The notes beneath the pieces were generated by a model, which worked only from the letters and a program-made list of their open reading frames with translations, was not told where the DNA came from and searched no databases. From a virus, in IMG/VR virus record IMGVR_UViG_3300017950_002394, positions 1 to 29,518 of that record: a stretch of DNA of 29,518 nt; one strand, given 5' to 3'. Made by a program: the position numbers and the translations under genes. Of the stretch, positions 2,481 through 29,518 are shown piece by piece (positions within the stretch are counted from its first letter, which is position 1; each line of letters begins with the position of its first letter).

Positions 2481-2491
2481 AGGTATAATAA

Positions 2492-8815: not shown

Positions 8816-9021
8816 TGAATAAGTTAAAGATAAAAGATCATGATGATTTGGTACGTGATGTTAAATCCAATGCGGTAATTAATACAAATCAAACCGCATT
8901 GGAAAATTATAGAAATAAACGAAAGGCAAAACGTGAAATGATTAATGACGTAACAAATCTTAAAAATGATGTGCAAGAAATAAAAGAATTATTACAACAA
9001 CTTTTAGAGAAGAATAGATGA
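8815..9021 (+). CDS. Small coiled-coil protein between tail genes
   Basis: 68 residues, very Lys/Asn-rich. The last 25 residues (VTNLKNDVQEIKELLQQLLE) have a hydrophobic heptad pattern expected of a short coiled coil. The start overlaps the previous stop by one base (TAATG) and the stop overlaps the next ATG by four (ATGA), so it is embedded in the tail operon and translationally coupled. No signal peptide or membrane segment is visible. I do not recognise a family. A small trimeric connector or assembly factor between the DUF4815 protein and the tail fibre is a reasonable guess from context only. Confidence 0.65.
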   Translation: MNKLKIKDHDDLVRDVKSNAVINTNQTALENYRNKRKAKREMINDVTNLKNDVQEIKELLQQLLEKNR

Positions 9022-12131: not shown

Positions 12132-12134
12132 TTT

Positions 12135-15367: not shown

Positions 15368-16020
15368 TGCTCAAATCCTTCATACGATTGATCGTCTAGC
15401 ATGTATCCTTTCTTAACATCAATTGTTTTATTGTAACTGTTAAAAATGCAGATGGGCATATTGGGGTAGTAATATTCTTTATGCCTACCTGTTTCGGGAA
15501 TGTATATCGGTTTATCGTCACAACCATATATCCCGTATAATCTACTATAGATATCAAATTGTGAAAAATGACAAACTTGTGCGTTGGATTCTAGATAGGT
15601 GTCTATTCCTCTATGTATCATCATATACTTTTCAGGATCGCACATAAACTTGCTCCACAGGTGATCTGTGCTGTCCCATGCCATAACTGATGAATTATAT
15701 CCTCTTTGAGATCTTATCAAAGAAACACAACCTCTCTTTGCATAAAATGGAAGATGGTCAATATTATTTTGTATTACCACGTCAAGATCTAAATAGAGTC
15801 CTTTTTGAAATAAGTAAAATAAGTATAGTTTATAGAACACGGGTTTTAATGACATGTCCTCATGTTCAATGATATGAATGTAAGGATCTATTCCTTTAAA
15901 GTTATCAGTGTAGCAAAAAAAGTTAAAGTCTTGGGTAAGATTTCTTTTACACATTTCGTAGACTCTGTTGACGAAAGAAGAGTCGAACTTATCTCCCAAC
16001 TTGACTGTTACAATGTTCAT
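15355..16020 (-). CDS. GT-A glycosyltransferase with DxD motif
   Basis: 221 residues. It starts 'MNIVTVKLGDKF' and has a Rossmann-like first half. 'FYKLYLFYLFQKGLYLDLDVVI' places D78-L-D80 exactly as in GT-A sugar transferases of the DXD type, where helix residues before the DxD contact the nucleotide. Further features are 'RGYNSSVMAWDS' near 107-118 and 'YIPETGRHKEYYYPN' near the C-terminus. No transmembrane segment is visible. It is the last gene of the leftward block and its ATG overlaps the stop of the methyltransferase-like gene (ATGA). It could attach the sugar made by the upstream amino- and carbamoyltransferases; that role is inferred from clustering only. Confidence 0.7.
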   Translation of the reverse strand: MNIVTVKLGDKFDSSFVNRVYEMCKRNLTQDFNFFCYTDNFKGIDPYIHIIEHEDMSLKPVFYKLYLFYLFQKGLYLDLDVVIQNNIDHLPFYAKRGCVSLIRSQRGYNSSVMAWDSTDHLWSKFMCDPEKYMMIHRGIDTYLESNAQVCHFSQFDIYSRLYGIYGCDDKPIYIPETGRHKEYYYPNMPICIFNSYNKTIDVKKGYMLDDQSYEGFEHYWS

Positions 16021-16649
16021 TGTCTGCCAATCACCATATATCTTTCGTACCCATTATTCATTTGATGTGTTCCAGAATATAGTATATCACTCAATCCTGA
16101 TTTGTCAATAAAATCTTTCTCACTTTTTGAACAATTGATATGATCATCAACATACTCCATATTATTGCTTTGCAAAATAAATATGCATCGTTCATTGTAT
16201 TCTTTATTTGCTATGATCTCTGGTAGGTTCGGCATATGTTCTGATGAAGTATTAATAACAAGACGAACATCTTTATCCTTATTCAATCCTTCATCGAGTG
16301 GATTAAGTGCATTTTGATTTTTCAAAAATACTTTATCTCCCAACTGTTTCTCGTTTGTAAATTTCCTGCAAAGGTCAAGTGCTCTATCGTCCAGATCTAT
16401 GTTCGTTATCTTTAATATCTGTGGTAATGCTTCCAATAGAATATCAATCAAAGGATATCCATACCATCCACCAAAAATATGCACATTCAATTTTTCGAAC
16501 TTATTAATGTGATGCATAGGGAGATTATCAACTAACCATTTTTTACAATCGAGTTGATCCGGACTCACACTATACAATAAGTCTTTTGCGTCATACTGTT
16601 TTTGTATTGCCTCCCACCATATCTTCCAGTAGATCGGATCTATTTGCAT
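16017..16649 (-). CDS. Putative SAM-dependent methyltransferase
   Basis: 210 residues from the ATG whose first base is 16649. A longer frame opens at 16688, but I prefer 16649: it has GGAG 8 nt upstream and gives a 10-nt overlap with the carbamoyltransferase, like other junctions here. Residues 55-71 'NVHIFGGWYGYPLIDIL' look like beta1 and a glycine-rich motif I. 'ITNIDLDDRALDLCRKF' (81-97) is the acidic beta2 end that binds SAM ribose in class I methyltransferases. 'VRLVINTSSEHM' follows about 40 residues later as motif-IV-like. The glycine motif is not canonical, so a related Rossmann enzyme is possible. Methylation of the cluster product is inferred. Confidence 0.55.
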   Translation of the reverse strand: MQIDPIYWKIWWEAIQKQYDAKDLLYSVSPDQLDCKKWLVDNLPMHHINKFEKLNVHIFGGWYGYPLIDILLEALPQILKITNIDLDDRALDLCRKFTNEKQLGDKVFLKNQNALNPLDEGLNKDKDVRLVINTSSEHMPNLPEIIANKEYNERCIFILQSNNMEYVDDHINCSKSEKDFIDKSGLSDILYSGTHQMNNGYERYMVIGRQ

Positions 16650-18124
16650 ATCATTTCTCCACCAAGAACCAATGTGTCGAGACCACACTTTTTAAATGTT
16701 TTCATTGCATCCTCTGGTGTTTCTACAATCGGTTCTTGACAATTAAAACTTGTATTGAGTAACATAGGTATACCAGTAATATCATGGAAAGCACTAATTA
16801 GCTTATAGTATCTTTCATTCTGGATTTTAGTGACAGTTTGTATTCTTGCAGTGCGGTCTACATGAGTGACACCGGGTATAGCATCGGAGATGACGGGAAC
16901 AATTCGTGACATGTAAGGACTAGGTTGATCCGTGTCAAAGTAATCCTGATAATATTCTTCCAATACTGATGGAGCAAATGGACGAAAGTCTTCTCTCAGT
17001 TTAATCTTAGAGTTGATAATGTCTTTAATGTTTGGATTACGGGGATCAGCAAGAATACTACGATTGCCCAATGCTCTGTTGCCACTTTCAGACTTCCCTT
17101 GATACCAACCAATAATTTTACCGTCTGCAATTTGTTTTGCGATTTCATGGTAATCTGGTTCGGACATATCTATATCATACTCTTGTCCACTGTATACTGA
17201 AGGAATATGAATATTTTTATTAATAATATAATCAGCATGCATGTATGAACCTAAAGATTGTCCTTCATCACCAACTGCAGGGGGGACGTAAACATTTTTA
17301 TACATTTTAGTGCAAAGTTCATTCATATACCCATTGTATGCAACCCCCCCAGATAAACACAAATTATCGGATGTTTTATGCTCTTCCAAATATTCCATGA
17401 TTTTATCATTAGTATATTGTTGCATAGTAAAGGCAATATCTTCCTTGGGTATTTTTTGTTCCTTCAAAGATTTCATTACTCTCTCATTAGCAAAATAAAA
17501 TTTATCTCTGTACTTTCTAAGTTCCTCGTTGTGCAATTCTAGAATAGAATACACGTAAGAGTTGTATTTGCCGTATCCTGCCAAACCCATTAACTTTCCT
17601 GCATCTAGAGTATGGAACCCAGTAAATATACATGCCATATTCCACAACCATCCAAGAGCAAGTTGGATTGATGCATCTTTAATGTGTCCGTTTTTATCCG
17701 CAAACATTGCACGATAAAACATCCCTCCACCATCAACCGCCAGACAGTCTGCCTCTTCATATTGAGAAGATAAAAAGGAGTATGCCATATGAGATTGATG
17801 ATGATTAATGTAATAGATATTGTCTTTGTAGTAATAATCCCATAGATTGGATGGACGGAATGCATTAATATTTTCATAGTGGTCTTTTAAAATAGTTTCA
17901 AAAACATCAATTCCTCGACTATCACGAACTCCTCCTCCAGTATAAGTAAACGTAAATATTTCAGAATCTATCCTTGGTAAAAAGTGCGCATCATAAAACT
18001 TTTTCCAACAACCTTTATACACGTTTCTTTTATGTCTTGTATACCTTTCAGATTGATAATGCAATACACCATCATACCAATTATGATCATGAGCATTTAA
18101 GGTCGTCGCAAAAATTTTTTTCAC
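16640..18124 (-). CDS. O-carbamoyltransferase, NodU/CmcH/TobZ family
   Basis: 494 residues, the most clearly identified enzyme of the block. It has 'HHQSHMAYSF' (H108, H109, H112) and 'LAVDGGG' (D131) of the Kae1-like ATPase-fold domain. It also has 'GKLMGLAGYGK', 'NLCLSGGVAYNGYMN', 'PPAVGDEGQSLGSY', 'ESGNRALGNRSILADPRNP' and 'IKLREDFRPFAPSVLEEY' of the C-terminal carbamoyltransferase domain. Family members make carbamoyl-adenylate from carbamoyl phosphate and ATP, then carbamoylate a hydroxyl on a sugar or antibiotic (nodulation factor, cephamycin, tobramycin). Members are usually around 550-600 residues, so this is a compact version with the motifs intact. Its ATG overlaps the upstream radical SAM stop by 4 nt. 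The acceptor hydroxyl is unknown. Confidence 0.9.
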   Translation of the reverse strand: MKKIFATTLNAHDHNWYDGVLHYQSERYTRHKRNVYKGCWKKFYDAHFLPRIDSEIFTFTYTGGGVRDSRGIDVFETILKDHYENINAFRPSNLWDYYYKDNIYYINHHQSHMAYSFLSSQYEEADCLAVDGGGMFYRAMFADKNGHIKDASIQLALGWLWNMACIFTGFHTLDAGKLMGLAGYGKYNSYVYSILELHNEELRKYRDKFYFANERVMKSLKEQKIPKEDIAFTMQQYTNDKIMEYLEEHKTSDNLCLSGGVAYNGYMNELCTKMYKNVYVPPAVGDEGQSLGSYMHADYIINKNIHIPSVYSGQEYDIDMSEPDYHEIAKQIADGKIIGWYQGKSESGNRALGNRSILADPRNPNIKDIINSKIKLREDFRPFAPSVLEEYYQDYFDTDQPSPYMSRIVPVISDAIPGVTHVDRTARIQTVTKIQNERYYKLISAFHDITGIPMLLNTSFNCQEPIVETPEDAMKTFKKCGLDTLVLGGEMICK

Positions 18125-18936
18125 TCCATTACCTCAAGAACTTGTAATATGTGATCTCGACTTCTTTTAGGGATTGTCTCAGTGCAATTGCGGCAGTAGT
18201 CTTCATACTTAAATAATTCGAAGTTCATCATCTTATCAATGTTTTCTTGAGTGAGTTCAAACTGCCTAGAACCGTTGATTACCTTTTTACTGCAGTGACG
18301 TATCTTACGAATCTCAAAGTCGATGACAGGGACTAAGGGGAAGGCAGAGCATATCTTACGATCAAACTCTGGTGCTTGTTCAATAACATCATACGTAGGA
18401 GATCGTGAATTGTATTCTTTCAACATCGTATTATCATGATAGATATCCATGCGATGCTTCTTGCTGTACTCATAGAACCCCGGTGTCTTGATAATCAGAT
18501 TGTAGTTGTTCTTGTCATTCTTTCCAAAGAACTCATACGTCTTAGGTCCAAGTTTTTCGATCCGATCTTCATAGAAGTCCAATACAAGGTGTTCGATGTA
18601 CATGATCTCAGGGTCTTCCAATATGAACGGATACCTGTTGCGAACCAGTGAGTTTGACAATACAGAAGGCACAAGGTTCTCGTGCTTCTTAATCTCATCA
18701 ATGACTTCAGGCAGATTCTTAACTAGTGCGGGTTCACCTCCTAACAAATTAATTCTTGTTGGGTAAGGTGAGAACCATTCTAACAACTCAGACAGAAACT
18801 CCATATCAACTACAAGGTTGCGCATTTCTTTCGTCCACGCAGTACAGTAGTGGCACGTCTTGTTGCACGATTTAGTTAGATAAAAATCAACAGAAAGATA
18901 ACCAAGTTCTTTCACATCACGTAATGATTTATACAA
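18121..18936 (-). CDS. Radical SAM enzyme with extra C-terminal cysteines
   Basis: 271 residues. 'FYLTKSCNKTCHYCTAW' gives the C24-x3-C28-x2-C31 ligands for the SAM-binding 4Fe-4S cluster, and 'INLLGGEPALV' (G66-G67-E68-P69) is the GGE motif that contacts SAM. C-terminal cysteines ('RKICSAF', 'IRHCSKK', 'DYCRNCTE') suggest an auxiliary iron-sulfur cluster of SPASM/twitch type. Such enzymes include peptide-modifying maturases and sugar dehydrogenases or dehydratases such as BtrN and AprD4. The gene lies between the StrS-type aminotransferase (3 nt gap) and the carbamoyltransferase (ATGA overlap), which favours a sugar or cyclitol substrate over a peptide. No precursor peptide was recognised. 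Radical SAM assignment is firm; the reaction is not known. Confidence 0.85.
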   Translation of the reverse strand: MYKSLRDVKELGYLSVDFYLTKSCNKTCHYCTAWTKEMRNLVVDMEFLSELLEWFSPYPTRINLLGGEPALVKNLPEVIDEIKKHENLVPSVLSNSLVRNRYPFILEDPEIMYIEHLVLDFYEDRIEKLGPKTYEFFGKNDKNNYNLIIKTPGFYEYSKKHRMDIYHDNTMLKEYNSRSPTYDVIEQAPEFDRKICSAFPLVPVIDFEIRKIRHCSKKVINGSRQFELTQENIDKMMNFELFKYEDYCRNCTETIPKRSRDHILQVLEVME

Positions 18937-18939
18937 AAT

Positions 18940-20007
18940 TTACACTATTCTCCATAAGATTTCGATCACATTATTTATTTCACTCTGTTCCATCCATGAA
19001 TGAATTGGAAGAGACATGACGGTATTTGAAGCAATCTTAGAATTAACACAGTCATCTTTCCTATGCTTAATATTATCATACATTGAATTTTCAGACAAGG
19101 GGTTATCATAATGAACTTGAAATCCGTGCTGGCGCAAATGTTCCCTCAAATCGTTATCTTCCAATCTTATAACATATTTGTGATTATTGTGTATTAAATT
19201 ATCATCTCTAGGTGATATGAATATAGGAAGACCGTTAAATGCTTGGTTATATTTCTGTGCTACAATTTCTCTTTTCTCGTGCAACTCAGTTAATCTTTTG
19301 AGTCTGTTACTAATTATTTTAGCATTTAGTAATCCCATGGTAGAATTTCTACCTAACATAGTAAAATCATTTTTCTTGCCGTGTCGTCGGATAGACCTAA
19401 CAAATTCTGCATGTTCCTCATTGTTTGTCAGGAACATACCACCTCCTTCAGGTCCGGCAATTACTTTGTTTATATTAAAACTAAAAGAACTGCAATCTCC
19501 AATAGACCCTGCTCTAATTCCATTTAGACTCGATCCTAGAGACTGTGCGGAATCTTCAATAAAAATTATATTATTCTCTTGACAAAACTCTTGTATTGCT
19601 GTAGAATCAGTCATGTTCCCGAATAGGTGTGTATAGATCAATGCTTTAGTCTTTGGTGACACCATTCTTTTGATAGACTCTAGAGATATATGATAAGACT
19701 CCAAATCAATATCGCAGAACACTGGTGTAGCACCAACCATTGATATGCATGATGATGTAGATATCCAAGAGAAGTCGGTGACTAATACCTCATCACCTGC
19801 ACCAACATTATGACATAGTAAAGAAAAGTGTAAAGCATCTGTTGCACTTGCGACTGCGACTGCGTAATCTCTTTTCGTGATAAATTCTAAAACTTGTCTT
19901 TCTAAAAATTCAACATTATTATCTTTAGAAGACATCACTCCATCAAAAATTCTTTGATAAGATCTTCTATTATCTGAATAATCTCTGTTCCATCCTGTAT
20001 ACTGCAT
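18940..20007 (-). CDS. DegT/DnrJ/EryC1/StrS-family PLP aminotransferase
   Basis: 355 residues, near full family length. 'ASATDALHFSL' binds the PLP phosphate, and 'GAGDEVLVTDFSWISTSS' and 'GATPVFCDID' are family signatures. 'FIEDSAQSLGS' supplies D152 and Q155, and 'FSFNINKVIAGPEGG' supplies the catalytic Lys181. These enzymes transfer an amino group, usually from Glu or Gln, to a keto sugar nucleotide or keto cyclitol. No damage is visible. ATG 20007 overlaps the preceding stop (TAATG) and has AGGAAAG upstream. Together with the carbamoyltransferase and glycosyltransferases it points to an amino sugar or aminocyclitol product. It could also be part of surface glycan synthesis. Confidence 0.9.
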   Translation of the reverse strand: MQYTGWNRDYSDNRRSYQRIFDGVMSSKDNNVEFLERQVLEFITKRDYAVAVASATDALHFSLLCHNVGAGDEVLVTDFSWISTSSCISMVGATPVFCDIDLESYHISLESIKRMVSPKTKALIYTHLFGNMTDSTAIQEFCQENNIIFIEDSAQSLGSSLNGIRAGSIGDCSSFSFNINKVIAGPEGGGMFLTNNEEHAEFVRSIRRHGKKNDFTMLGRNSTMGLLNAKIISNRLKRLTELHEKREIVAQKYNQAFNGLPIFISPRDDNLIHNNHKYVIRLEDNDLREHLRQHGFQVHYDNPLSENSMYDNIKHRKDDCVNSKIASNTVMSLPIHSWMEQSEINNVIEILWRIV

Positions 20008-20018
20008 TATCTTTCCTG
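20006..20018 (-). repeat. 13-bp repeat CAGGAAAGATAAT, copy 1
   Basis: Encodes the C-terminal Q-E-R-stop of the SPASM-like protein and includes the ribosome site of the DegT aminotransferase gene. The same 13 bases occur at 20974-20986 at the end of the nitroreductase gene. Over 22 bp the two sites differ at only three positions. Confidence 0.6.
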
Positions 20019-20342
20019 TTGATTTTTTAGGTTGCCATTATCAAAAGTTTTATATATTTGTTTTCGTTCTTCTTTTTTTTCTTTTTCACAAAGATCAAAA
20101 CAACAAATCGGTCCTTTATGATTTTTTAAATTTTCTACAAATATTTGCCACTCGTCCAGAAATAATATTTCATCAATAGTATCAAATTCATCTATTTTAC
20201 TTGCTTGCATCAAATTCCATAACGATTCATCATTTCTGTATGATTTAGGATCATCGCATCGGCAACACGGAAGCAATTCTCCTCTGTTAGTGATTGCCAT
20301 GCCAATCTCACCTTTTAAACACTTAGGTTCTAATTTTTTCAT
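20007..20342 (-). CDS. Stand-alone SPASM-like Cys-rich protein
   Basis: 111 residues with seven cysteines: C8, C26, C27, C29, C80, C81, C85. C8-x12-G21-x4-C26 matches the opening of the SPASM auxiliary-cluster motif (C-x9-15-G-x4-C), and the downstream cysteines could complete one or two 4Fe-4S clusters. In most radical SAM/SPASM enzymes this domain is fused to the C-terminus of the radical SAM domain; here it is a separate gene. It begins with an ATGA overlap with the upstream 206-residue radical SAM gene. I infer that the two proteins act as one enzyme. The C-terminus (KKEERKQIYKTFDNGNLK) is highly charged. Confidence 0.7.
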   Translation of the reverse strand: MKKLEPKCLKGEIGMAITNRGELLPCCRCDDPKSYRNDESLWNLMQASKIDEFDTIDEILFLDEWQIFVENLKNHKGPICCFDLCEKEKKEERKQIYKTFDNGNLKNQQER

Positions 20343-20959
20343 AACATCCTTTTTGTGGGTTTAAGTAGATCTGCAGGACCAGAGTTTCTTGTCGAATATA
20401 TAACATAAAATTTCACCCCAATTTCATTAGCATGATTTAGAGCATCGATAACATGATCCTCATTGTATTTAAAAACAAGATATTGCCATGTTGGTTTATT
20501 GTTTAAATATTTTTTTGACTCTATCATTGCTTGGTAAAGAATTTTTGTCCTTTGATTTTTTCTATAGATAATACTTTCGTCAATAGGGTAACCATCAATA
20601 CCAAAAATCCATTGAGCCTTTGGGCACGATTTAAATGCCTCGACATACCAATCTATTTTTTTATACCCAGAAGCATGATGCACCTCAACTAATTGAACCG
20701 AAGGATTATTATTGCACATTTTTAAAAATTCTATAAATTTTGGATGATGTACTGGATCAGAATATTGGCCGCAAAAGGAAATGTGTGTAAATTTTTCGCA
20801 TACCTTTGCAAATTCTTCAATTGTTAAATCTCTTCCAATTGATTTATTTGTTTGCCTAGCACATTGTAGACATTCTAATGGACAACGATTGCAAATATCA
20901 ATATTAACAAATTGTTTGTTGACATCATACCATTGTCTTACTGAATAATTAATCATCAA
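20339..20959 (-). CDS. Radical SAM protein (split from SPASM-like partner)
   Basis: 206 residues. 'NIDICNRCPLECLQCARQTN' carries the C26-x3-C30-x2-C33 cluster ligands plus an extra C23. 'FTHISFCGQYSDPVHHPKF' occupies the place of the GGEP strand, in the form seen in several phage radical SAM proteins. The later beta/alpha units of the partial TIM barrel are present ('PKAQWIFGIDGYPID', 'PTWQYLVFKYNED', 'GVKFYVIYSTRN'), so the barrel looks complete and short. The protein stops where a SPASM domain would normally follow, and the next gene provides that domain. A CGGAG ribosome site precedes the start. The substrate is unknown. Confidence 0.8.
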   Translation of the reverse strand: MMINYSVRQWYDVNKQFVNIDICNRCPLECLQCARQTNKSIGRDLTIEEFAKVCEKFTHISFCGQYSDPVHHPKFIEFLKMCNNNPSVQLVEVHHASGYKKIDWYVEAFKSCPKAQWIFGIDGYPIDESIIYRKNQRTKILYQAMIESKKYLNNKPTWQYLVFKYNEDHVIDALNHANEIGVKFYVIYSTRNSGPADLLKPTKRML

Positions 20960-20973
20960 TATACTCCGATTGT

Positions 20974-20986
20974 ATTATCTTTCCTG
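20974..20986 (-). repeat. 13-bp repeat CAGGAAAGATAAT, copy 2
   Basis: Encodes Q-E-R-stop at the end of the nitroreductase-like gene, just before the radical SAM gene. It is identical to the sequence at 20006-20018, and the preceding codons are similar too (N-T-Q-E-R against N-Q-Q-E-R). The two copies flank the radical SAM plus SPASM gene pair in direct orientation. Confidence 0.6.
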
Positions 20987-22258
20987 AGTATTTTTCACAA
21001 TTTCAATACATTTAATATCTCTGGTGTATGCTGTATTAATTTTAATTTCATGTTCTGTTGGTATAAATTGTTTTTTACCATAAGGGTCTGTTAGTGTTTG
21101 TCCTCCATATTCTTTAACATCGTAAATGTCTATTTTACGTTTTTCTTTACCATTTTTAGTCAAAGGATTCCAATCTGCATCTCTATGTTTAATTGATACG
21201 TGATGACCGTTACTTGCTCCTATTGCAATTTCTGTATCATCACTTTCCCATCTTGGTCTTCCTTCATTGGGAAATCCTATACCAAGACCAAAAAATAATC
21301 TTTTTGTTCCTGCTTTTACATCGTCATAAATCCCTAATGTTTTTTCCCATTCATATTCATAGTCCGGACCCAAATCTTTTACTTTATTTGGACCTGTCTT
21401 GTACCCCATTCGATGAGCAGCTCGCATTACCAAACTCATTGCCATACCAACACTTACAATTGAATTTTCCCAACGACTTTCACCAAAAGCATTTTGTAAA
21501 GTCCCATCATTATTGCAGTTAAACATAGTTGGAGGTTGTTTGCAAACAAATATCATATACAAATTTGCATTCATTTGCGAATTTCTCCACATCGCAGGTG
21601 GATTTTTTCTATGAGTACTTCCCCAACTAAATTGATATAAGTACTCAATAGTTTCTCTATCTGTAGAATAATATACATCATAGTATGCTTCATGTTGTTT
21701 ACTAGGTGCATTTTGAGCAATCCACAATAAATAATCTACTACTTGAGGACTTATTGTTTTAGAGAGATCCCAATTCCTTTGGCATTCTTGCATAGACAAC
21801 ATAGTTTTTTGTTCATCGTCCCAAGAATATATCATGTGTTTTATTCTTGTTTCATAATCAACTGTTCTGGGAATCTCATCATTATTAGATGTCATGCCGT
21901 CGTTTAAATTCTTTTTAAATTTGCTTATAGCATCTGTACACAGATAGATTGTTTGTTGATCGTTTATCAAATCTTGTATACAATTTAATATAAAATTATA
22001 ACATTCAAATTCTATATGTAAATACTTTAGTTGAAGTCTTCCACTATCAAAAAATATTCTAGCAACATTATCCATGGGTATTAAAGTATTGTCTTCTAAA
22101 CAATATAATATGGAGTTTAAAATATATTTTAAATCTTCTGTTCGATGTTGATTATCTTGAGATGAGAACGGATAAGTTTTTTTGATCCAAGCATCAGTTT
22201 TTTCTGCAATACTATCTTTATTTTCCTTTATTATTGCAATCGATTGTTGTATACTCAT
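20975..22258 (-). CDS. Nitroreductase-fold flavoprotein with extra N-terminal domain
   Basis: 427 residues. The C-terminal part has features of the FMN-dependent nitroreductase family: 'VDYLLWIAQNAPSKQHEAYYDVYY' (near 173-196) resembles the FMN-contacting R/xxAPSxxNxQPW segment. 'ENSIVSVGMAMSLVMRAAHRMGYKTG' resembles the A-G-A-x-x-x-L-x-A-x-x-x-G-Y/L-G helix, and 'LFFGLGIGFPNEGRPRW' the closing G-x-P segment. Nitroreductases are usually 180-250 residues; here about 135 extra N-terminal residues, mostly helical with several cysteines, are unassigned. The family reduces nitro groups and quinones, and relatives oxidise peptide azolines or dehalogenate. It sits between the GT-B-like gene (4-nt overlap) and the radical SAM gene (15-nt gap). 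Its redox role in the pathway is not known. Confidence 0.65.
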   Translation of the reverse strand: MSIQQSIAIIKENKDSIAEKTDAWIKKTYPFSSQDNQHRTEDLKYILNSILYCLEDNTLIPMDNVARIFFDSGRLQLKYLHIEFECYNFILNCIQDLINDQQTIYLCTDAISKFKKNLNDGMTSNNDEIPRTVDYETRIKHMIYSWDDEQKTMLSMQECQRNWDLSKTISPQVVDYLLWIAQNAPSKQHEAYYDVYYSTDRETIEYLYQFSWGSTHRKNPPAMWRNSQMNANLYMIFVCKQPPTMFNCNNDGTLQNAFGESRWENSIVSVGMAMSLVMRAAHRMGYKTGPNKVKDLGPDYEYEWEKTLGIYDDVKAGTKRLFFGLGIGFPNEGRPRWESDDTEIAIGASNGHHVSIKHRDADWNPLTKNGKEKRKIDIYDVKEYGGQTLTDPYGKKQFIPTEHEIKINTAYTRDIKCIEIVKNTQER

Positions 22259-23082
22259 AAAAAATCCTCAATTCCTTTAAGTATGGGAGATACATCTATT
22301 TCCCGAATCTCTCTTTCATAATAAACACTTCCCCCATCCACAACATTCTTATCACGTGCATAGATAATGTCTTTGCTATAGTATTTGCACTCTTGAATTA
22401 ATCGTGGTGCAGGGTCAAAATAATCTTTTGTGTACACGTATGTTTTAAACTTGCCAAGCAAGTTATTCACTGGGACATATACATTATTTAGGTCACGACT
22501 AGTATACTTATCGTCATACACTAGTATACCATGATCTACGTAATTTAGATATTTTTTAATAATTTTTTCTGCGGTATTATAATACCTTTTATTCGTTCCT
22601 AGAAACAAATATTCAAACTGCACGTCGTCAACTGGATCTTTGTAGATAGAGAAGTTGATATGTTTTTCAAAATGATCACCAACACCGTTGGGATACACTT
22701 CATGATCACATAGATCATAAGTTTTTGATTTGAAGTACTCTACTGCCTTGGGGTAATCTTCAGGATGATTTTCTGAGTACACAACAATACAGTTTTTAAA
22801 TAGCAAATGCATCAGTAACTTTTGATCACTACTGTATTTGGTTATAGTCAAAAAAGGAATTGTGATAATACTCCTTCCCATGACGATAGAAACCCCATCC
22901 TCATAATCATCAAATATAATATCACCGACTACAGTATATTTTTTCTCAATAGAATTAATATAGTCTTGCGGCACAAAGTCCGGATGTGTTATAATAATGA
23001 GAGGTATATTAAGATATTGAGAATATTCATAACTATAGTAAAACAAACCGTCATGTGGTTTACTTGTGCAGACTATGTTCAA
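22255..23082 (-). CDS. Putative GT-B-like glycosyltransferase
   Basis: 275 residues from TTG (first base 23082), with AGGAT 7 nt upstream; no in-frame ATG lies nearby. It is the first gene of the leftward block. The C-terminal half resembles the second Rossmann domain of GT-B enzymes: 'FEYLFLGTNKRYYNTAEKI', 'VDHGILVYDDKYTSRDLNNVYV', and 'YFDPAPRLIQECKYYSKDIIY', where the E-C-K-Y-Y segment sits at the usual E-x7-E-like donor-binding position. The N-terminus (HDGLFYYSYEYSQYLNIPLIIITHPDF) fits a GT-B acceptor domain. Family identity is weak and the protein is shorter than typical GT-B enzymes. It lies opposite the mini-SDR gene across a 48-bp gap with promoter-like sites. Confidence 0.45.
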   Translation of the reverse strand: MNIVCTSKPHDGLFYYSYEYSQYLNIPLIIITHPDFVPQDYINSIEKKYTVVGDIIFDDYEDGVSIVMGRSIITIPFLTITKYSSDQKLLMHLLFKNCIVVYSENHPEDYPKAVEYFKSKTYDLCDHEVYPNGVGDHFEKHINFSIYKDPVDDVQFEYLFLGTNKRYYNTAEKIIKKYLNYVDHGILVYDDKYTSRDLNNVYVPVNNLLGKFKTYVYTKDYFDPAPRLIQECKYYSKDIIYARDKNVVDGGSVYYEREIREIDVSPILKGIEDFL

Positions 23083-23130: not shown

Positions 23131-23559
23131 ATGACCAAATTTCATATCACTGGAACACGTCGTGGTTTAGGTAAAGCACTTTTAGATAAGTATGGGAACT
23201 GCAGTTTCGAAGAATGTGATGTGTTCATTAATTGCAAACACGATAAGTATTCCCAAGTAGATTTGTTGTACAAAGCGGCAGAGATGGGTAAGAGAATAAT
23301 TAATATAGGTTCCAATAGTCCAGATGAAACTAAGAATACTGCTCGTCCATACCAAATAGAAAAGTTTGCATTAGATAAAGCAAATGAACAATTGTTTTAT
23401 CAGGGAGTTGATACTACAATTCTTAGATTCGGATATTTTGATACCCCAAGAGTTGCACACATCGATGCCAACAAAATGAGTCTTCAGTATGTTGTCAGCA
23501 TTGTGGAGTGGGTATTACAACAACCACATAGAGTAAAGGAAATTACTGTATGTCCATAG
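23131..23559 (+). CDS. Mini short-chain dehydrogenase/reductase-like protein
   Basis: 142 residues. 'FHITGTRRGLGKALLD' is the SDR dinucleotide-binding motif T-G-x3-G-x-G (T7, G8, G12, G14). 'DVFINCKHDKY' replaces the N-A-G strand, 'RIINIGSNS' carries the catalytic Ser position, and 'RPYQIEKFALDKAN' gives Y74-x3-K78. Typical SDRs are about 250 residues; here the segments between beta-strands are shortened while the S-Y-K catalytic residues and the N-terminal Gly motif are kept, so it appears compacted rather than broken. NAD(P) is the likely cofactor; substrate unknown. It is the first gene of the rightward block, 31 nt downstream of a CTAAATAG site, and its stop overlaps the next start by 10 nt. 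Confidence 0.7.
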   Translation: MTKFHITGTRRGLGKALLDKYGNCSFEECDVFINCKHDKYSQVDLLYKAAEMGKRIINIGSNSPDETKNTARPYQIEKFALDKANEQLFYQGVDTTILRFGYFDTPRVAHIDANKMSLQYVVSIVEWVLQQPHRVKEITVCP

Positions 23560-24020
23560 AAGTAATCGGTAAAGTTGACATCGATAAAATAATCACAGAA
23601 ATTTCACAACTCGATTTTAAAACACAATTGCCACTACAAGGGGTTGCGGGAAGTGATTCTTCCTCTGATGGTATGGTCGAAGAGTTAGATTATGTAGAGA
23701 CAGAATATAATCATAATTTGTATACCAATATGATGCCATACACATATGAAGTGATCAATGAGTATGTGATGTATAGAAGCAGAGTGATGAAGATGAAAGA
23801 AAAAACATGTTACAGTTATCACTATGATAGTACAAAAAGAATTCATATTCCTCTAATTACGAACTGGAAATGTTTTTTGTTGATAGGTGATAGATCCTAT
23901 CATTTACCTGCTGATGGATCAGTCTACCTTGTGGACACTACTGGATATCATACAGCATTAAATGGGAGTAGAGAAAGGTTTGACAGAATACACCTCATTG
24001 GAAACGTTACCTCATTTTAA
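23550..24020 (+). CDS. Aspartyl/asparaginyl beta-hydroxylase-like 2OG oxygenase
   Basis: 156 residues. 'CYSYHYDSTKRIHIPLITN' gives H91-Y-D93 of the facial triad and the following I-H-I-P-L strand. 'YHLPADGSVYLVDTTGYHTALNGS' gives the distal His H134 with N138, and 'RFDRIHLIG' gives R146 for 2-oxoglutarate. This spacing matches the aspartyl/asparaginyl beta-hydroxylase family. Family members hydroxylate Asp or Asn side chains in peptides or free amino acids. The protein consists of little more than the beta-helix core. It overlaps the SDR by 10 nt and the next, related gene by about 40-60 nt depending on that start. Substrate unknown. Confidence 0.75.
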   Translation: MSIEVIGKVDIDKIITEISQLDFKTQLPLQGVAGSDSSSDGMVEELDYVETEYNHNLYTNMMPYTYEVINEYVMYRSRVMKMKEKTCYSYHYDSTKRIHIPLITNWKCFLLIGDRSYHLPADGSVYLVDTTGYHTALNGSRERFDRIHLIGNVTSF

Positions 24021-24588
24021 ACTAAACATTCGATTGCCTATAGAATGTAGAAATGAGTTGATGGAGATTGATGATTATTACGGTTTAATTCTTGATAGTA
24101 AAGTCAAAGAAGCAACTCGTAGAAGGTACCGTGCTACGTCCAAAGGACATGCATTTAGATCATATGCCTCATTTAAAGACGCATATAATCTGAACTTTTA
24201 TAAAGAATTTATTCGAACCGAGTCGTGGCATAAGATACCAAAAACAACTAAATGGTTAACCTCAAATTTATGTGACGAAGACGATATGGGTATGGTTTGT
24301 TTGCATAAAATTACTGCAGGGGGATGGGTTAATTGGCATTCGCACGGAGAGTATGGATTGTCAATTGTACATTTTAGTCTACAGACTAACGAAGACGACT
24401 TGTCTGAGGTATGGAATCAATCAGACAATACTATTGATTCTATGAACTATCCAGAGTTGGAAGGGTATGTATTTAACTCTTTTTTACAACACAGGTCAAC
24501 AAATTTTTCAGAACAAGACAGAATACACTTAGTAGTGGAATGTGATCCTAATAATGAACGATTTCAAAATTTATACACTAGAGCATAA
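23962..24588 (+). CDS. AspH-like/cupin oxygenase with HxH motif
   Basis: 208 residues from ATG 23962, which overlaps the previous gene by 59 nt. TTG 23980 (GAG 6 nt upstream) is an alternative start, and the conserved part lies well downstream of both. 'AGGWVNWHSHGEYGLSIVHFSL' (residues 119-140) gives H126-S-H128 and E130. 'FNSFLQHRSTN' gives H177 and 'QDRIHLVVE' gives R187. The layout (H-rich strand, distal His, Arg) parallels the aspartyl-hydroxylase-like gene just upstream, but the first ligand pair is HxH or HxHxE instead of HxD. It could be a Fe(II) cupin dioxygenase or a diverged 2OG enzyme. It forms a tandem pair with its neighbour and may act on the same substrate. Confidence 0.6.
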   Translation: MGVEKGLTEYTSLETLPHFKLNIRLPIECRNELMEIDDYYGLILDSKVKEATRRRYRATSKGHAFRSYASFKDAYNLNFYKEFIRTESWHKIPKTTKWLTSNLCDEDDMGMVCLHKITAGGWVNWHSHGEYGLSIVHFSLQTNEDDLSEVWNQSDNTIDSMNYPELEGYVFNSFLQHRSTNFSEQDRIHLVVECDPNNERFQNLYTRA

Positions 24589-25135
24589 AAAACTTTGGAT
24601 TGATGACTTTCATAATAAGTTAGAACAGATAAAGTTGTCTGATGATCCAAAGAAAGATAACTATCTATTATCCAATTTAAAGTTCGATGAACAGGTTGAC
24701 TTTTCTGTGATCTATAAAGAAAATGACTTGGTTGCCTTTTCATCGATATGGAACAGAGATTCTTATCCTATCAATTCGTATCGTATACTTAATCGTTCAT
24801 GGAAAGATCCTCGCATCCGATGGGGGAAACCTGCTTATTTTGTATTGAGTAAAATGATGGTAGATCATCAGGTTGATGTATGCAAAAGAATAGGGGCATC
24901 GTCAGTCTTTATTAGTAGTGAGGGCAGACGAAAACTATGGTTAAAAAAATGGGTACATGGTGCCAATCAAGACGGACATAAGTTTATCCAAATTAATGGT
25001 ATGGTTAAAGTTTGTGGGGCATCATATCTTAGGTGTTGGCAGAATGTTGCTTACTTAAGTTTAGATGGCACTGTCCCAGACTTTACATGTGTAGACTACG
25101 ATATCTGGGAACTAATGGTAAACTATGACAAATAA
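24554..25135 (+). CDS. Putative GNAT-like acyltransferase or hypothetical protein
   Basis: 193 residues from ATG 24554; a GTG at 24542 in the same frame would add four residues. The middle shows a strand-turn-strand 'DFSVIYKENDLVAFSSIW' like beta2-beta3 of GNAT acetyltransferases. It is followed by a long helix (YFVLSKMMVDHQVDVCKRIGASSVFIS) and 'GRRKLWLKKWV'. The R/Q-x2-G-x-G/A acetyl-CoA loop is not clear, so the family call is weak. It has no signal peptide or membrane segment. It overlaps the upstream oxygenase gene by 35 nt and the downstream PLP gene by 11 nt, so it belongs to the same coupled operon. Confidence 0.5.
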   Translation: MNDFKIYTLEHKKLWIDDFHNKLEQIKLSDDPKKDNYLLSNLKFDEQVDFSVIYKENDLVAFSSIWNRDSYPINSYRILNRSWKDPRIRWGKPAYFVLSKMMVDHQVDVCKRIGASSVFISSEGRRKLWLKKWVHGANQDGHKFIQINGMVKVCGASYLRCWQNVAYLSLDGTVPDFTCVDYDIWELMVNYDK

Positions 25136-25889
25136 AAATGTAATACATGGATACGATTTGCCAAATGAAAGTCTAGGACGAAACTATGATCTTATAGAAA
25201 AATACGAAAATGCATGGAGATCTTGGTTGGGTCTTTCATCATTTGAATATGCGATACCCACAAACGGAATTGTAGAATCTATAGAAAAGATTTGCTCAAG
25301 CAAAGATTACAAACGATTTGTTATTATAGAGAATGAAGTTAAATTTTACGAATCAATATTAAAAAATTATAATCAAAATTATATTGTGATTAGACCTTAT
25401 GATTGGGCAGTTTTACACGAAGATGATTTAATTTGTTTGAGTATGCCTTTTTCTCCTATTGCTTCTATCCCTACTTGGTATTATGATCTTTGTCGTTACA
25501 TCAAAGACAAAAGTATTTTTATGTTTATCGATGGTGCTTACTTAGGCACTATAGGCGAGAAATTGCATATACCTGAAAATTGTAAACTATTTGCAGTAAG
25601 TGTTAGTAAATGTTTTAATGCCTCTGGTCTTAGATCGGGCATGTTGTTCTGTGACCATGTACCAACATTGTTTAAGACTAAAGTCCATCTTGCCAACTAT
25701 AATTATTATGCTATGGTAAAAACAATTGAACTGCTCAGTGAATACGATTACTATTACATGTATGATACATTTCGAGATACGCAACTAAAGATATGTGAAG
25801 AGCAGGGCCTGACCCCTGCTGATAGTGTAGTCCTTGGTTACAATAAAGATCTAAGGGTGTGTATCCCAAAAGTCTACAGAAAAACCTAA
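25125..25889 (+). CDS. Short fold-type-I PLP enzyme (class I/II aminotransferase-like)
   Basis: 254 residues. 'IFMFIDGAYLGT' gives D136 and Y139, which contact the PLP pyridine and 3'-hydroxyl. 'FAVSVSKCFNASGLRSGML' gives the catalytic K162 in S-x-S-K and R170, which with the serines binds PLP phosphate. These are the class I/II aminotransferase signatures (histidinol-phosphate aminotransferase and threonine-phosphate decarboxylase relatives), normally 350-400 residues. The N-terminal substrate arm and most of the C-terminal small domain are missing or reduced, including the usual C-terminal Arg region. It could be a minimal aminotransferase, decarboxylase or lyase. The 3' end overlaps the convergent radical SAM gene by 39 nt and contains a GC-rich hairpin. 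Confidence 0.7.
   Translation: MTNKNVIHGYDLPNESLGRNYDLIEKYENAWRSWLGLSSFEYAIPTNGIVESIEKICSSKDYKRFVIIENEVKFYESILKNYNQNYIVIRPYDWAVLHEDDLICLSMPFSPIASIPTWYYDLCRYIKDKSIFMFIDGAYLGTIGEKLHIPENCKLFAVSVSKCFNASGLRSGMLFCDHVPTLFKTKVHLANYNYYAMVKTIELLSEYDYYYMYDTFRDTQLKICEEQGLTPADSVVLGYNKDLRVCIPKVYRKT
25801..25820. terminator. GC-rich perfect hairpin at convergent gene ends
   Basis: AGCAGGG, a 6-nt loop (CCTGAC) and CCCTGCT form a perfect 7-bp stem with five G-C pairs, unusual in this AT-rich DNA. It lies within the last 30 codons of the short PLP gene and 31 nt beyond the stop of the leftward radical SAM gene. No U-tract follows on either strand, so intrinsic termination is uncertain. It may instead stabilise or mark 3' ends of converging transcripts. 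Confidence 0.35.
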
Positions 25890-27398
25890 TTTATTGTAGT
25901 AAGTTTTTACGTGATCATAGAACTTATTTTCTAACCATCGCATCAGTCCGACATCCTGATCCATGACAAAGTTGAAGTACAAATCAACATCTTGGTGATT
26001 GATACCATAAGTTCTGAATATAGGATACATATCAGATCCAACCCAATAAGGATCTCTTGTATCATAAAGAGCACGTGCTTCATTGTATAGTTGATATGCT
26101 TGAGTTGACGACATGGTTTCATGTACCCAATCATTTCCATATCCACGGATAGTATAATCCTCTTTCCCGTACTCACTCATTTCTTTGATGTCAATCATGT
26201 TGTCATAAAATTTATCTCTATGCCACGTAGTAAAACTATATGTCTTTAATGGTGACGATTTTAACCATTCAAAAGTTTGTCGTTGTGATTCTGGTGTTTC
26301 TTCAGGCAGTCCAATAATAAAATTGCTGTGAGTGTATAACTGACCGTCGGTTCTTTTGTTAATCTCTTCTAACACTTTATTAGATTTTTTGTGACTTAGA
26401 TTTTTATTTGCTCTCTTCAATGCTTTATCATTAGTCGACTCTAATCCAAATTTTAAATACTTGCAACCCGAGTCATACATTAAATTAATTAGATCAGGAT
26501 GGGTGCTTAGTATATCAGTTCGTGCATATGAGTGCCACTCAATATCAAACGGGAGATCTATAAACATGCCACAGATGTCTTCAACCTTTTTCTTACTATC
26601 ATTAAACGTATCATCAAGTAATCGATATCGAGTTGTACCATACATTTCATAATTTCTAATTAGTTCTTCTCTAATTGATAAGGTGTCTCTTTTTTTATTT
26701 GTGTGACGGTATGAACAAAAATAACAATTGAAAGAGCACCCTCTGCTAATTTCTATAAATGTCCATTCGTCCGGACAAAAGTGGCTGTGTCTATTGTCAA
26801 TGGACAGATTGCGCATGTGATCCTTTGTCACCGGATAATCTTTATCGGCATGAATGACTTTTGTGTTTTTAAATTTATAACTTTTATTGCCGATGTCCCA
26901 AGTGTCATAACAAATAGGGTTGTTTAAATTTTGTACTGCTATGTCACCCTCACCTGTGATTACGTAATCTATATGATCATCAATGTATTTCAATCCTTCA
27001 TTTGACACATTTGTTATTTGCCCACCACCAATAATTATTTTAACATGGGGATAATTATCTTTGATATACGATAATATTTTGGATGCTTTCTCGTGGAAAT
27101 AAATTACTGAATTTGATTTACTTCCTATAGGATTAAATTTATCAAATAAAGAATGTTGATTGAAGTTCTTTGTGTGCCCTCTCATGTTTGTTAAACTAAT
27201 ACCCACAATTTTAGTATTGTCGTCGATATACTTATTGAGAATTTCTTTTTGTTTTTCAAATCTTAGATGGAAGAAATAATCGATCACAGGACATTGCAAT
27301 GCAGTTGCAATTCTATAAGCTCCTGCAGTTCGGATTGGTGTTCCATGCCCATAGTCAGCATTAAACCTTGGCATCATGTCTGTCAATACTAAATTCAT
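25851..27398 (-). CDS. B12-binding-type radical SAM protein
   Basis: 515 residues. 'EISRGCSFNCYFCSYR' supplies C221-x3-C225-x2-C228. The N-terminal about 190 residues have the Rossmann pattern of cobalamin-binding domains of this class: 'KIVGISLTNMRGHT', 'VKIIIGGGQITN' and 'DYVITGEGD'. The classic D-x-H-x-x-G cobalamin motif is not seen, so B12 binding is uncertain. The barrel continues with 'RYRLLDDTFNDS', 'WHSYARTDIL' and 'CKYLKFGLESTND...ALKRANK', then 'SNFIIGLPEETPES', all standard for this superfamily. Relatives methylate unactivated carbons, make methylthio groups or rearrange rings. It is the last gene of the right-hand leftward block, starting in an ATGA overlap with the upstream oxygenase. 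Substrate unknown. Confidence 0.83.
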   Translation of the reverse strand: MNLVLTDMMPRFNADYGHGTPIRTAGAYRIATALQCPVIDYFFHLRFEKQKEILNKYIDDNTKIVGISLTNMRGHTKNFNQHSLFDKFNPIGSKSNSVIYFHEKASKILSYIKDNYPHVKIIIGGGQITNVSNEGLKYIDDHIDYVITGEGDIAVQNLNNPICYDTWDIGNKSYKFKNTKVIHADKDYPVTKDHMRNLSIDNRHSHFCPDEWTFIEISRGCSFNCYFCSYRHTNKKRDTLSIREELIRNYEMYGTTRYRLLDDTFNDSKKKVEDICGMFIDLPFDIEWHSYARTDILSTHPDLINLMYDSGCKYLKFGLESTNDKALKRANKNLSHKKSNKVLEEINKRTDGQLYTHSNFIIGLPEETPESQRQTFEWLKSSPLKTYSFTTWHRDKFYDNMIDIKEMSEYGKEDYTIRGYGNDWVHETMSSTQAYQLYNEARALYDTRDPYWVGSDMYPIFRTYGINHQDVDLYFNFVMDQDVGLMRWLENKFYDHVKTYYNKLGFSVDFWDTHP

Positions 27399-28147
27399 TT
27401 ATACTCTTCTGGCAAGTAATTAATTTTATGTGTTGCTGTTGACAAAGGGATATCTCTATCGTCCCAAAGATCGAGAGTAAGGTAGATTCGATTAAAGTTT
27501 CCTGTGTGTACTATTTTATGAGGCACACTCACATTCATGAACCAAGCATGCCCCGGTTCGAAATATATTTCACACCACTCATCATCAATAAGAAAAAAAG
27601 TTTTTACAGATTCGTCAGTGTAGACAGGAATATGAACTCTAAATCCATTATTTTTAGGATGCGGATAATCTATATGAGGTTTCAGATGCCAGTTTGGATA
27701 CGCAATACTGTATCGTGCCCGTATAACTTCCGAAGAAAACTTTTTCAAAATGTTTTTTGTATATTGCCCTACCCAAGGCAATGTCTTTGTCCACTTGACA
27801 GGATCGGGTTCCATCAAATTAAATTGTCTGTATTCATCTGCCACAAAATTCACATCAGCAAGTTCACTTTTTGCATCTTCCCACGCAACATTTCTGGTAG
27901 AAAACCATTTTTTTAAATACGTCCCGGTTTGATCTAATAAGAAACTTTGGTGTTCCAGATATTCTTCATACAACCACTCATGATCAATATCAGAAAATAT
28001 TGGTGCGCACACGGGATATTCGTTGAGATTACCTTTGGACTTATACAATTTAATTTCATCAAAGAGATTGACTTCATCCCATTTATAAATCTTTTTGATT
28101 GTGCCAATTGATTCTCCCTTATAAGGATGACGGCTGATAATTTTCAT
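27395..28147 (-). CDS. Aspartyl/asparaginyl beta-hydroxylase-like 2OG oxygenase
   Basis: 250 residues. 'PNWHLKPHIDYPHPKNNGFRVHIPVY' gives H158-I-D160. 'YFEPGHAWFMNVSVPHKIVHTGNFNRIYL' gives distal H210 (H214 possible) and R220. The order H-x-D, 'R-x-H-I-P', distal His and Arg matches the aspartyl/asparaginyl beta-hydroxylase family. About 140 N-terminal residues precede the core and are unassigned; they include 'PVCAPIFSDIDHEWLYEEYLEH'. The protein is larger than the similar 156-residue enzyme at 23550. The stop overlaps the radical SAM start, and the start overlaps the upstream oxygenase stop by 4 nt. Shared operon and fold suggest one pathway with its neighbours. Confidence 0.78.
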   Translation of the reverse strand: MKIISRHPYKGESIGTIKKIYKWDEVNLFDEIKLYKSKGNLNEYPVCAPIFSDIDHEWLYEEYLEHQSFLLDQTGTYLKKWFSTRNVAWEDAKSELADVNFVADEYRQFNLMEPDPVKWTKTLPWVGQYTKNILKKFSSEVIRARYSIAYPNWHLKPHIDYPHPKNNGFRVHIPVYTDESVKTFFLIDDEWCEIYFEPGHAWFMNVSVPHKIVHTGNFNRIYLTLDLWDDRDIPLSTATHKINYLPEEYK

Positions 28148-28914
28148 ATCACCAAAACCCTATCATAATTTTTAGATGCATTCATCTGTATCCAATCAAT
28201 CATTTGAGTTGATGCTTTCCCTTCTACTCTACATATAATTCTTTGTTGATCTGAAGCATCAATACTATGATGTATTAGATCAGGTCTGAAGTAATAAACT
28301 TTATCATTCATTGTAACAGTTTCATTTGATCTGGTATAGTGAAAATTAATACCATCTCCCTGTAGTACAATTGTTATTATACAGTCAACGTCCATATTGA
28401 AATGATTAATATTGTACTGTGACAGATGCTCCTGTCTTCTTTTATTTGTTTCGGAGTCGATACGATATACACTATCAATGTGTCTATGTAAAGACATTCC
28501 TTTTTCTACTGTTTGTATATTAACTCTGCCCAACTTTTCGAAAGGAAGTTTACTGACTAATGAACACAGACGAGGACAGTCTTTTGCAATTGATGTCCAG
28601 TTAAAGTAATGGGTGTCAGTAATTAAATAACTAAAACTATACTTGTGTCCATTAATCCCTCGCAGAAGAACTCCACGAACAGGAAAGTCTTCTGGTCTTT
28701 TATCTCTTTGGTTTTGTCGAGATTCTTTTTCTATCAAGTCTGCCTCGTTGATATTAAACAACGACATTTTAGGTCTATCCAGTTTAATCCCTTTAGATGA
28801 TATCCAAGCACCGTAATTTTCAATCGAGTGTTTACCTTCACGAAAAACTTCTTGCTCATTATATTCCAAATGTAAAGGTGAATATAATACTAACTGTTTA
28901 TTAAGGTACACCAT
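28144..28914 (-). CDS. 2OG-Fe(II) oxygenase-like protein
   Basis: 256 residues. 'GRVNIQTVEKGMSLHRHID' gives H145-I-D147. After an insertion of about 25 polar residues, 'MDVDCIITIVLQGDGINFHY' forms the next strands. 'YYFRPDLIHHSIDASDQQRIICRVEG' gives distal H215 or H216 and Arg R225/R229. The pattern is that of the HxD...H beta-helix dioxygenases, close to the aspartyl-hydroxylase-like group. The N-terminal 125 residues are unassigned, and no signal peptide or membrane segment is seen. It overlaps both neighbours (14 nt upstream, 4 nt downstream). Substrate unknown. Confidence 0.72.
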   Translation of the reverse strand: MVYLNKQLVLYSPLHLEYNEQEVFREGKHSIENYGAWISSKGIKLDRPKMSLFNINEADLIEKESRQNQRDKRPEDFPVRGVLLRGINGHKYSFSYLITDTHYFNWTSIAKDCPRLCSLVSKLPFEKLGRVNIQTVEKGMSLHRHIDSVYRIDSETNKRRQEHLSQYNINHFNMDVDCIITIVLQGDGINFHYTRSNETVTMNDKVYYFRPDLIHHSIDASDQQRIICRVEGKASTQMIDWIQMNASKNYDRVLVI

Positions 28915-29428
28915 GAATTTTCTCGATCAGAGTATCAATTTGTTCGTCTTCACCAAACCCACCAACATGGAAAAAACATCTTCTATCTTTATTTTCGGGA
29001 ACACCGTGCTTTATCCAACCATTTATTATACATACATTGGAATAATTATAACTTGCGATTTTATTATCATCCTCATCATAAAAATGGCACGGGTCATTAA
29101 CATTCAATAAAGGGATTGATAATACACAAGATCTATAATCTTTATGAGGAATAATAGCACCACTAAGTTCTGCTATTTGACTATTATCATATACATGCTT
29201 ATAATCATGATGTTTATTTGTATTACAGAAAAGATTTGCAATTTTTTTAAAAATAGGATGGTCTGAATAATCATCAGATGATTCTGATATTCTATATCTT
29301 TTATAAAATGATGATCCGGATGAAACTGAAAAATTATTCTCATATTTTTCAAATAAACTTAACAAAAAAATTTTATCTTGCTCTGTTACATTAATATTAT
29401 TAACATGATAAAAATATGTCACTTGCAT
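28901..29428 (-). CDS. Small HxD...H oxygenase-like protein
   Basis: 175 residues from ATG 29428; the frame also opens at GTG 29434. I prefer ATG because AAGAG lies 5 nt upstream. 'AELSGAIIPHKDYRSCVLSIPLLN' gives H95-K-D97. 'SNVCIINGWIKHGVPENKDRRCFFHVGG' gives distal H141 and R149/R150. The spacing fits a minimal 2OG-Fe(II) oxygenase core. The strand wording (S-I-P-L-L-N ... I-N-G-W-x-x-H-G-V) resembles small phage dioxygenases, by recollection only. It overlaps the partial upstream gene by 10 nt and the next gene by 14 nt. Confidence 0.65.
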   Translation of the reverse strand: MQVTYFYHVNNINVTEQDKIFLLSLFEKYENNFSVSSGSSFYKRYRISESSDDYSDHPIFKKIANLFCNTNKHHDYKHVYDNSQIAELSGAIIPHKDYRSCVLSIPLLNVNDPCHFYDEDDNKIASYNYSNVCIINGWIKHGVPENKDRRCFFHVGGFGEDEQIDTLIEKIHGVP

Positions 29429-29518
29429 TCCCACTCTTGTTTGAAGTTCGGTCTGCTGACTTTCATTTTGAAAGGAGAAGATTCGATTAGTTTTTTATAT
29501 TTTTCTGTGTAGAATCCA
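29419..29518 (-). CDS. C-terminal end of an upstream gene (partial)
   Basis: Read from the right edge leftwards, a frame stays open for 32 codons and ends at TGA 29421-29419. Its last residues are K-M-K-V-S-R-P-N-F-K-Q-E-W-E-C-K, giving a 10-nt overlap with the next gene's ATG. That overlap style is the same as at other junctions in this window, which supports a real gene. Nothing can be said about its function from so short a tail. Confidence 0.55.
   Translation of the reverse strand, partial: GFYTEKYKKLIESSPFKMKVSRPNFKQEWECK

Follow-up and report, generated by a model that had tools for sequence, protein, structure and literature searches.

What would a virus do with five different oxygenase genes set close together? 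The question is raised by the IMG/VR virus record IMGVR_UViG_3300017950_002394, of which positions 1 to 29,518 were analysed here (the window, 29,518 nucleotides). An earlier note on this DNA had pointed out five oxygenase-like genes within 6 kb and a sixth, diverged one. We confirmed the open reading frames (ORFs) of all six at the positions by which they are named here: 23550, 23962, 27395, 28144 and 28901 (the last, from its GTG start, ending at 29434) for the five, and 14702 for the sixth. On evidence of varying strength, all six proteins are of the 2-oxoglutarate (2OG)-Fe(II), double-stranded beta-helix kind, and judging from the sequences the cluster is neither chance nor an annotation artefact. 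Our favoured explanation, to which we give about an even chance, is that the five and their neighbours form an exchangeable cassette that tailors a small molecule or glycoconjugate, rather than hydroxylating proteins.

Family, fold and ligands of the clustered oxygenases

23550..24020, + strand: oxygenase 1 (PF05118), HYD...H...R; Pfam E 4e-8, above gathering score
23962..24588, + strand: oxygenase 2 (PF05118), HGE...H...R; Pfam E 2e-7, above gathering score; orthologue at 13774-14439 of the viral contig L002
27395..28147, - strand: oxygenase 3 (PF05118), HID...H...R; Pfam E 3.5e-9, above gathering score; orthologues 70-74% identical
28144..28914, - strand: oxygenase 4, distant PF05118-like, HID...H...R; Pfam E 0.005, below cut-off; orthologues 64-66% identical
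28901..29434, - strand: oxygenase 5, HKD...H...R; from an AlphaFold model, fold search and orthologues

The double-stranded beta-helix followed from PF05118 membership for 23550, 23962 and 27395. For 28901 it was found in an AlphaFold model built from three orthologues (pLDDT 79), whose top Foldseek matches were nearly all 2OG oxygenases and which reached a VIA Z of 10.8 to PHD2. The fold assignment of 28144 is weaker, coming from its motifs and a PF05118 score of 17.1 bits against a gathering score of 22.6. The Pfam search gave neither PF05118 nor another family for 28901 and 14702, and PHROGs gave no functional name for any of the five. The earlier note had allowed that structure models might lack the beta-helix; those of 28901 and 14702 both matched 2OG oxygenases, and with PF05118 for the others (weakly, with the motif, for 28144) the proposed oxygenase identity was borne out. 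AlkB and ALKBH5 were among the nearest Foldseek matches of 28901 and 14702, as might be expected if AlkB/TET-like oxygenases hypermodified DNA, but this fold is common to all 2OG oxygenases. With three of the five in PF05118, an island made up of surface genes, and prolyl hydroxylases ranked first by VIA, we consider DNA modification very improbable.

The iron ligands HxD/E...H and a distal Arg for 2OG were present in all five and retained in their orthologues: H91-Y-D93/H134 in 23550, H128-G-E130/H177/R187 in 23962, H158-I-D160/H210/R220 in 27395, H145-I-D147/H215-216/R225 in 28144 and H97-K-D99/H143/R152 in 28901. The His motif and distal His described earlier were thus found throughout, with two corrections: 14702 carries HxN (see below), and 23962, previously taken as a cupin-like HxH protein, was rejected as such by profile alignment and is better read as HxE, because its L002 orthologue carries HYD at this place. 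Aspartyl/asparaginyl beta-hydroxylases of the AspH type have a two-His site without an acidic ligand. All five have HxD/E, and an AspH-type identity was rejected for them. The nearest solved relative of 27395 was L-proline cis-4-hydroxylase (PDB 4p7w), a weak match (E 0.11) in which HxD...H aligned, but over only about 100 residues, so that the substrate is not transferable.

Furthermore, the five are far apart from each other. Among their 10 pairs, eight aligned no better than shuffled sequences and two weakly (z 4.0-4.2), which rejects a recent tandem duplication, in agreement with the earlier note; profiles connected 23550, 23962 and 27395 via one further relative. Between orthologues, the proportion of synonymous differences (pS 0.62-0.87, with synonymous sites near saturation) exceeded that of non-synonymous ones (pN 0.16-0.47), and therefore the genes are under constraint, that is, purifying selection. 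Of 48 phage records, mostly gathered by means of the VrlC gene and many of them fragmentary, 5 had PF05118 matches; among these are the window and three relatives that had been picked up by way of its oxygenases.

A conserved block with a B12-type radical SAM gene

23131..23559, + strand: short protein like a short-chain dehydrogenase/reductase (SDR), paired with 23550; motifs GTRRGLG and YQIEK recognised by eye, without a Pfam match; same pair in the phage L185
24542..25135, + strand: possible GNAT/acyltransferase-like protein; no Pfam match; syntenic in L002; by eye and from an N-acetyltransferase-annotated gene near the oxygenase of Pelagibacter phage Mosig
25125..25889, + strand: short pyridoxal phosphate (PLP)-enzyme-like protein (aminotransferase class I/II); Pfam E 0.009, below cut-off; profile matches PDB 3p1t, E 5e-4
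25851..27398, - strand: B12-type radical SAM enzyme; Pfam Radical_SAM match (E 8e-14); matches to B12-binding (E 3e-5) and to PhpK (E 4e-44) each under the cut-off; closest solved structure AprD4 (E 1e-8)

The order 28901-28144-27395-B12-type radical SAM was kept in the window and two other viral contigs (L002 and L003), and in the window these genes overlap shortly. Both contigs carry extra oxygenase-like genes, inserted and upstream, as well as a desaturase-like gene; L002 has seven such oxygenase-like genes in the 8.6 kb between 5829 and 14439. In the window and L002, the block is followed on the opposite strand by the PLP-like, acyltransferase-like and 23962 genes. The SDR-23550 pair is shared instead with L185, and therefore the island is composed of exchangeable cassettes. 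The B12-type radical SAM, SDR and PLP neighbours claimed earlier were supported, the SDR by motif only. By eye, L003 also encodes a BMP-type ABC-transporter substrate-binding protein (4048-5061).

The nearest solved relative of the radical SAM enzyme is AprD4 (PDB 6fd2, E 1e-8) of aminoglycoside (apramycin) biosynthesis; its genome context differs and the reaction is not transferable. A pattern scan, which reaches close relatives only, found no cellular relative of this enzyme.

The desaturase-like gene adjoins the oxygenases in L002, L003 and Mosig, and PF05118 contains LpxO; LpxO-type hydroxylases and a desaturase might thus modify acyl chains of lipid A or another lipid. However, the window has no desaturase, the conserved partners are radical SAM, PLP and sugar enzymes, and no lipid hydroxylase model matched. 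We hold a lipid substrate to be improbable.

The 14702 protein and the repeat-fibre cassette

12135..13565, + strand: fibre-like protein whose C-terminal part repeats the tetrapeptide [Y/F]-x-G-x, with 31 Y/F pairs spaced 4 apart there
13547..14005, + strand: charged protein of about 150 amino acids (aa), probably coiled-coil (by eye); present in 71 of 71 testable loci
13965..14705, + strand: GT-A-like glycosyltransferase with invariant DxD (D92/D94 in 12 homologues); weak Pfam nucleotide-sugar transferase matches
14702..15367, + strand: double-stranded beta-helix oxygenase-fold protein, WHxN...H...R; AlphaFold pLDDT 89.5; VIA Z 11.5 to PHD2

The 14702 model contained the double-stranded beta-helix and matched AlkB, PHD2 and FTO in Foldseek and VIA. 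Its ligands are H128-H-N130/H188/R196, and all four residues were kept in 83 of 83 homologues; HxN, in place of HxD/E, also occurs in both other copies in the phage C48C1. The activity of this protein is uncertain because HxN stands where active 2OG oxygenases have HxD/E. Profile comparison detected no sequence link to the five, and matches to PHROGs were at chance level. With its different gene context, 14702 was therefore rejected as the sixth of the set: what remains of the earlier claim of a diverged member is the fold.

Instead, 14702 is part of a separate, widespread cassette of repeat fibre, small charged protein, GT-A-like transferase and oxygenase-fold protein. The family is large: among the matches listed, relatives are encoded by at least 521 of the 599 stretches of viral contigs that a pattern picked out. 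Gene context was counted in the best 80 loci, picked for similarity to the window's 14702 protein; with the window, C48C1 and L033 added, grouping at 70% identity gives 13 groups, and hence these are not 80 independent cases. The transferase gene lay directly upstream of the 14702 homologue in every testable locus (75/75), a homologue of the 12135 fibre-like protein was present upstream in 50 of 50, and the tetrad Y/F repeat occurred in 49 of these 50 loci versus none of 460 background ORFs. The window's fibre-like protein had no Pfam or PHROG match, and those at the matching place in Mosig, L185 and L190 had no Y/F tetrad repeat. In L085, repeat fibre and transferase were found without the oxygenase, though the contig ends within the next gene. 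Exclusive fibre linkage of the whole family was rejected, as C48C1 has two more HxN copies, near uvsY and a helicase. The repeat fibre-like protein of C48C1 (L008 8666-18709) is 3347 aa long.

The best PDB matches of the 13965 transferase were glycogenins (glycogenin-1), which were not significant (E 0.1). Glycogenins glucosylate tyrosine. It is possible, though we put it no higher than a tentative proposal, that 14702 and the transferase are a dedicated two-enzyme system modifying the Tyr/Thr/Gly tetrapeptide-repeat tail fibre, in which the HxN-type protein would oxidise (or, if inactive, present) repeat residues and the glycogenin-like transferase would glycosylate Tyr/Thr.

These genes also bear on whether the five are residue-specific hydroxylases of tail fibres or other virion proteins, like some viral prolyl hydroxylases on collagen-like proteins, as the earlier note had suggested as one option. 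PF05118 includes protein hydroxylases, the island of the five has fibre genes too, and 14702 is tied to the repeat fibre. However, the five travel with biosynthetic enzymes (B12-type radical SAM, PLP) and with no fixed fibre gene. With no linked protein substrate, and a free-amino-acid hydroxylase as the nearest, weak, solved relative, we consider this unlikely for the five. For 14702, tied to its repeat-fibre gene, residue-specific hydroxylation is the better reading, though HxN makes its catalysis uncertain.

Setting in the host recognition cluster

711..2480, + strand: baseplate wedge gp8-like protein, a T4-like phage marker; Pfam Phage-Gp8 E 9e-7
2492..8815, + strand: VrlC-like protein (DUF4815), marking the left edge of the host recognition cluster (HRC); DUF4815 E 8e-48; full-length alignment to Mosig VrlC, 33% identity
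15355..16020, - strand: glycosyltransferase; PHROG 1962 glycosyltransferase E 2e-7
16017..16688, - strand: methyltransferase-like protein; weak Methyltransf_3 E 7e-4, below cut-off; beside the carbamoyltransferase in Mosig and G001
16640..18124, - strand: NodU-type carbamoyltransferase; Pfam Carbam_trans_C E 2e-65
18121..18936, - strand: radical SAM protein; Radical_SAM E 5e-7; partial viperin/MoaA-like matches
18940..20007, - strand: DegT/DnrJ/EryC1 sugar-type aminotransferase; E 2e-80; PseC/LegC-like, below equivalog cut-offs
20007..20959, - strand: pair of separate genes, radical SAM (20339-20959) and SPASM-like (20007-20342); weak Pfam matches below cut-off; kept as a pair in relatives
20975..22258, - strand: nitroreductase-family protein; Pfam E 6e-7
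22255..23082, - strand: conserved protein, glycosyltransferase-like C-terminus by eye; 54-55% identical in L002 and Mosig; no family match

The window is a genome fragment of a marine, pelagimyophage-like (T4-like) phage, entering its HRC; the phage probably infects SAR11. The HRC was described for pelagimyophages, T4-like phages infecting SAR11, as an island that adjoins VrlC and holds fibre genes, glycosyltransferases and radical SAM cassettes (PMC7029224). The window is alike: gp8 and VrlC-like genes stand in order at 711-8815, and directly after them come fibre-like genes and then a long series of biosynthetic genes. The other border of an HRC is the neck gene gp14; the contig stops at 29518, ahead of any neck gene. 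The available part of the same description lists an aspartyl/asparaginyl beta-hydroxylase among the core genes and does not mention a multi-oxygenase/B12-type radical SAM/PLP block such as the window has (PMC7029224).

The closest named relative found for the island was Pelagibacter phage Mosig EXVC030M (MT647606). The two share a sugar-type core, found in G001 as well, whose methyltransferase, carbamoyltransferase, radical SAM, DegT aminotransferase, SPASM and radical SAM genes keep their relative order. Mosig too has PF05118 genes inside and near its island. A search of Mosig gave no match to 28901, 28144, the B12-type radical SAM enzyme, the Y-x-G-x repeat or the 14702 family.

Several other observations concern the radical SAM genes. 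The core and SPASM-like part at 20007-20959 are two overlapping genes in the window and a single fused gene in L002 (3134-4108). By eye, L182 has four successive radical SAM/SPASM-like genes in its island (8747-14755) and an additional HxD...H...R oxygenase-like gene (8747-9391). Matches to the split radical SAM also occurred in genome bins; L187-L190, binned as Acidimicrobiia, Planctomycetota and Flavobacteriales genomes, resemble phage DNA carrying the same module, while L191 and L192 are ambiguous.

Proposed role of the oxygenases

Tailoring of a small molecule or glycoconjugate by the five is favoured because of their sugar and small-molecule neighbours, the weak resemblance of 27395 to a free-proline hydroxylase, and that of the radical SAM enzyme to AprD4. 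The five would be divergent Fe(II)/2OG hydroxylases that belong to, or border on, the Asp/Arg-hydroxylase family (PF05118). O2 would probably be activated at the HxD/E...H iron site of each while the distal Arg holds 2OG. Their pathway partners would be the B12-type radical SAM enzyme, the PLP enzyme, the acyltransferase-like protein, the DegT aminotransferase, the carbamoyltransferase, the glycosyltransferase and the methyltransferase. Most likely the pathway would make or decorate an unusual amino-acid- or sugar-derived group, to be placed on a host surface glycan or on the virion; that the enzymes are active, what they act on, in which sequence, and where their product ends up are all inferred here. 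Successive oxidation of one scaffold, as suggested earlier, would fit the overlapping order conserved in L002 and L003 and the sugar-type neighbours. The 14702 protein, in its separate cassette, would most likely act on the upstream Y-x-G-x repeat fibre with its own glycosyltransferase.

Several points weigh against this proposal. The class of product is read from neighbours whose arrangement changes from one phage to another, the resemblance to a free-amino-acid hydroxylase is weak (E 0.11), and a desaturase-like gene beside the oxygenases of L002, L003 and Mosig would agree just as well with an acyl substrate. B12 use by the 25851 protein is doubtful because its B12-binding match (24.4 bits versus a cut-off of 32.1) falls short, in a protein that does match Radical_SAM. 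The contig end at 29518 leaves the oxygenase operon incomplete; judging from the orthologous loci, one more oxygenase and a desaturase-like gene would be expected in the missing right end. As to 14702, its HxN may mean that the metal site is altered or that catalysis has been lost, and the two further C48C1 homologues are located away from any fibre.

Comparison with known systems and biological meaning

That a marine T4-like phage may carry many divergent 2OG oxygenases is already established: cyanophage S-SCSM1 has 24 2OG-Fe(II) oxygenase genes, mutually divergent like those of the window (PMC9602691). However, its proteins belong to PF13640/13661/13759/05721, whereas the window's are PF05118 and unassigned, within 6 kb beside B12-type radical SAM and PLP genes. 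2OG oxygenases are also a known feature of pelagiphage-related viruses (PMC11561400). For S-SCSM1 and other marine phages, an auxiliary metabolic or regulatory role has been proposed, in which the oxygenases lower 2OG or hydroxylate host proteins and so reprogram metabolism (PMC9602691), and 2OG oxygenases are enriched in seasonal marine viruses (PMC11561400). However, such a role would not explain why the order with the B12-type radical SAM and PLP genes is fixed or why the five are so diverse, and we judge it slightly less probable still than a lipid substrate. In the open-access papers searched, we found no description of PF05118 genes clustered with genes for a B12-type radical SAM and a PLP enzyme or of a repeat-fibre/transferase/HxN cassette, and nothing useful on phage Asp/Asn hydroxylases or Tyr-rich fibres.

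The genes of the oxygenase island suggest that a surface molecule or fibre undergoes elaborate chemical tailoring. For the many 2OG oxygenases of marine T4-like phages, the two systems offer two kinds of substrate that can be tested: a small molecule or glycan that is tailored (the B12-type radical SAM/PLP block) and a repeat fibre (the 14702 cassette). If the latter proposal is true, 14702 and its transferase would give marine phages a fibre decoration that is widespread and has gone undescribed. If either is true, phages of abundant ocean bacteria would carry out unusual oxidations on their own surface or on that of their hosts, and such surface chemistry would bear on adsorption and superinfection.

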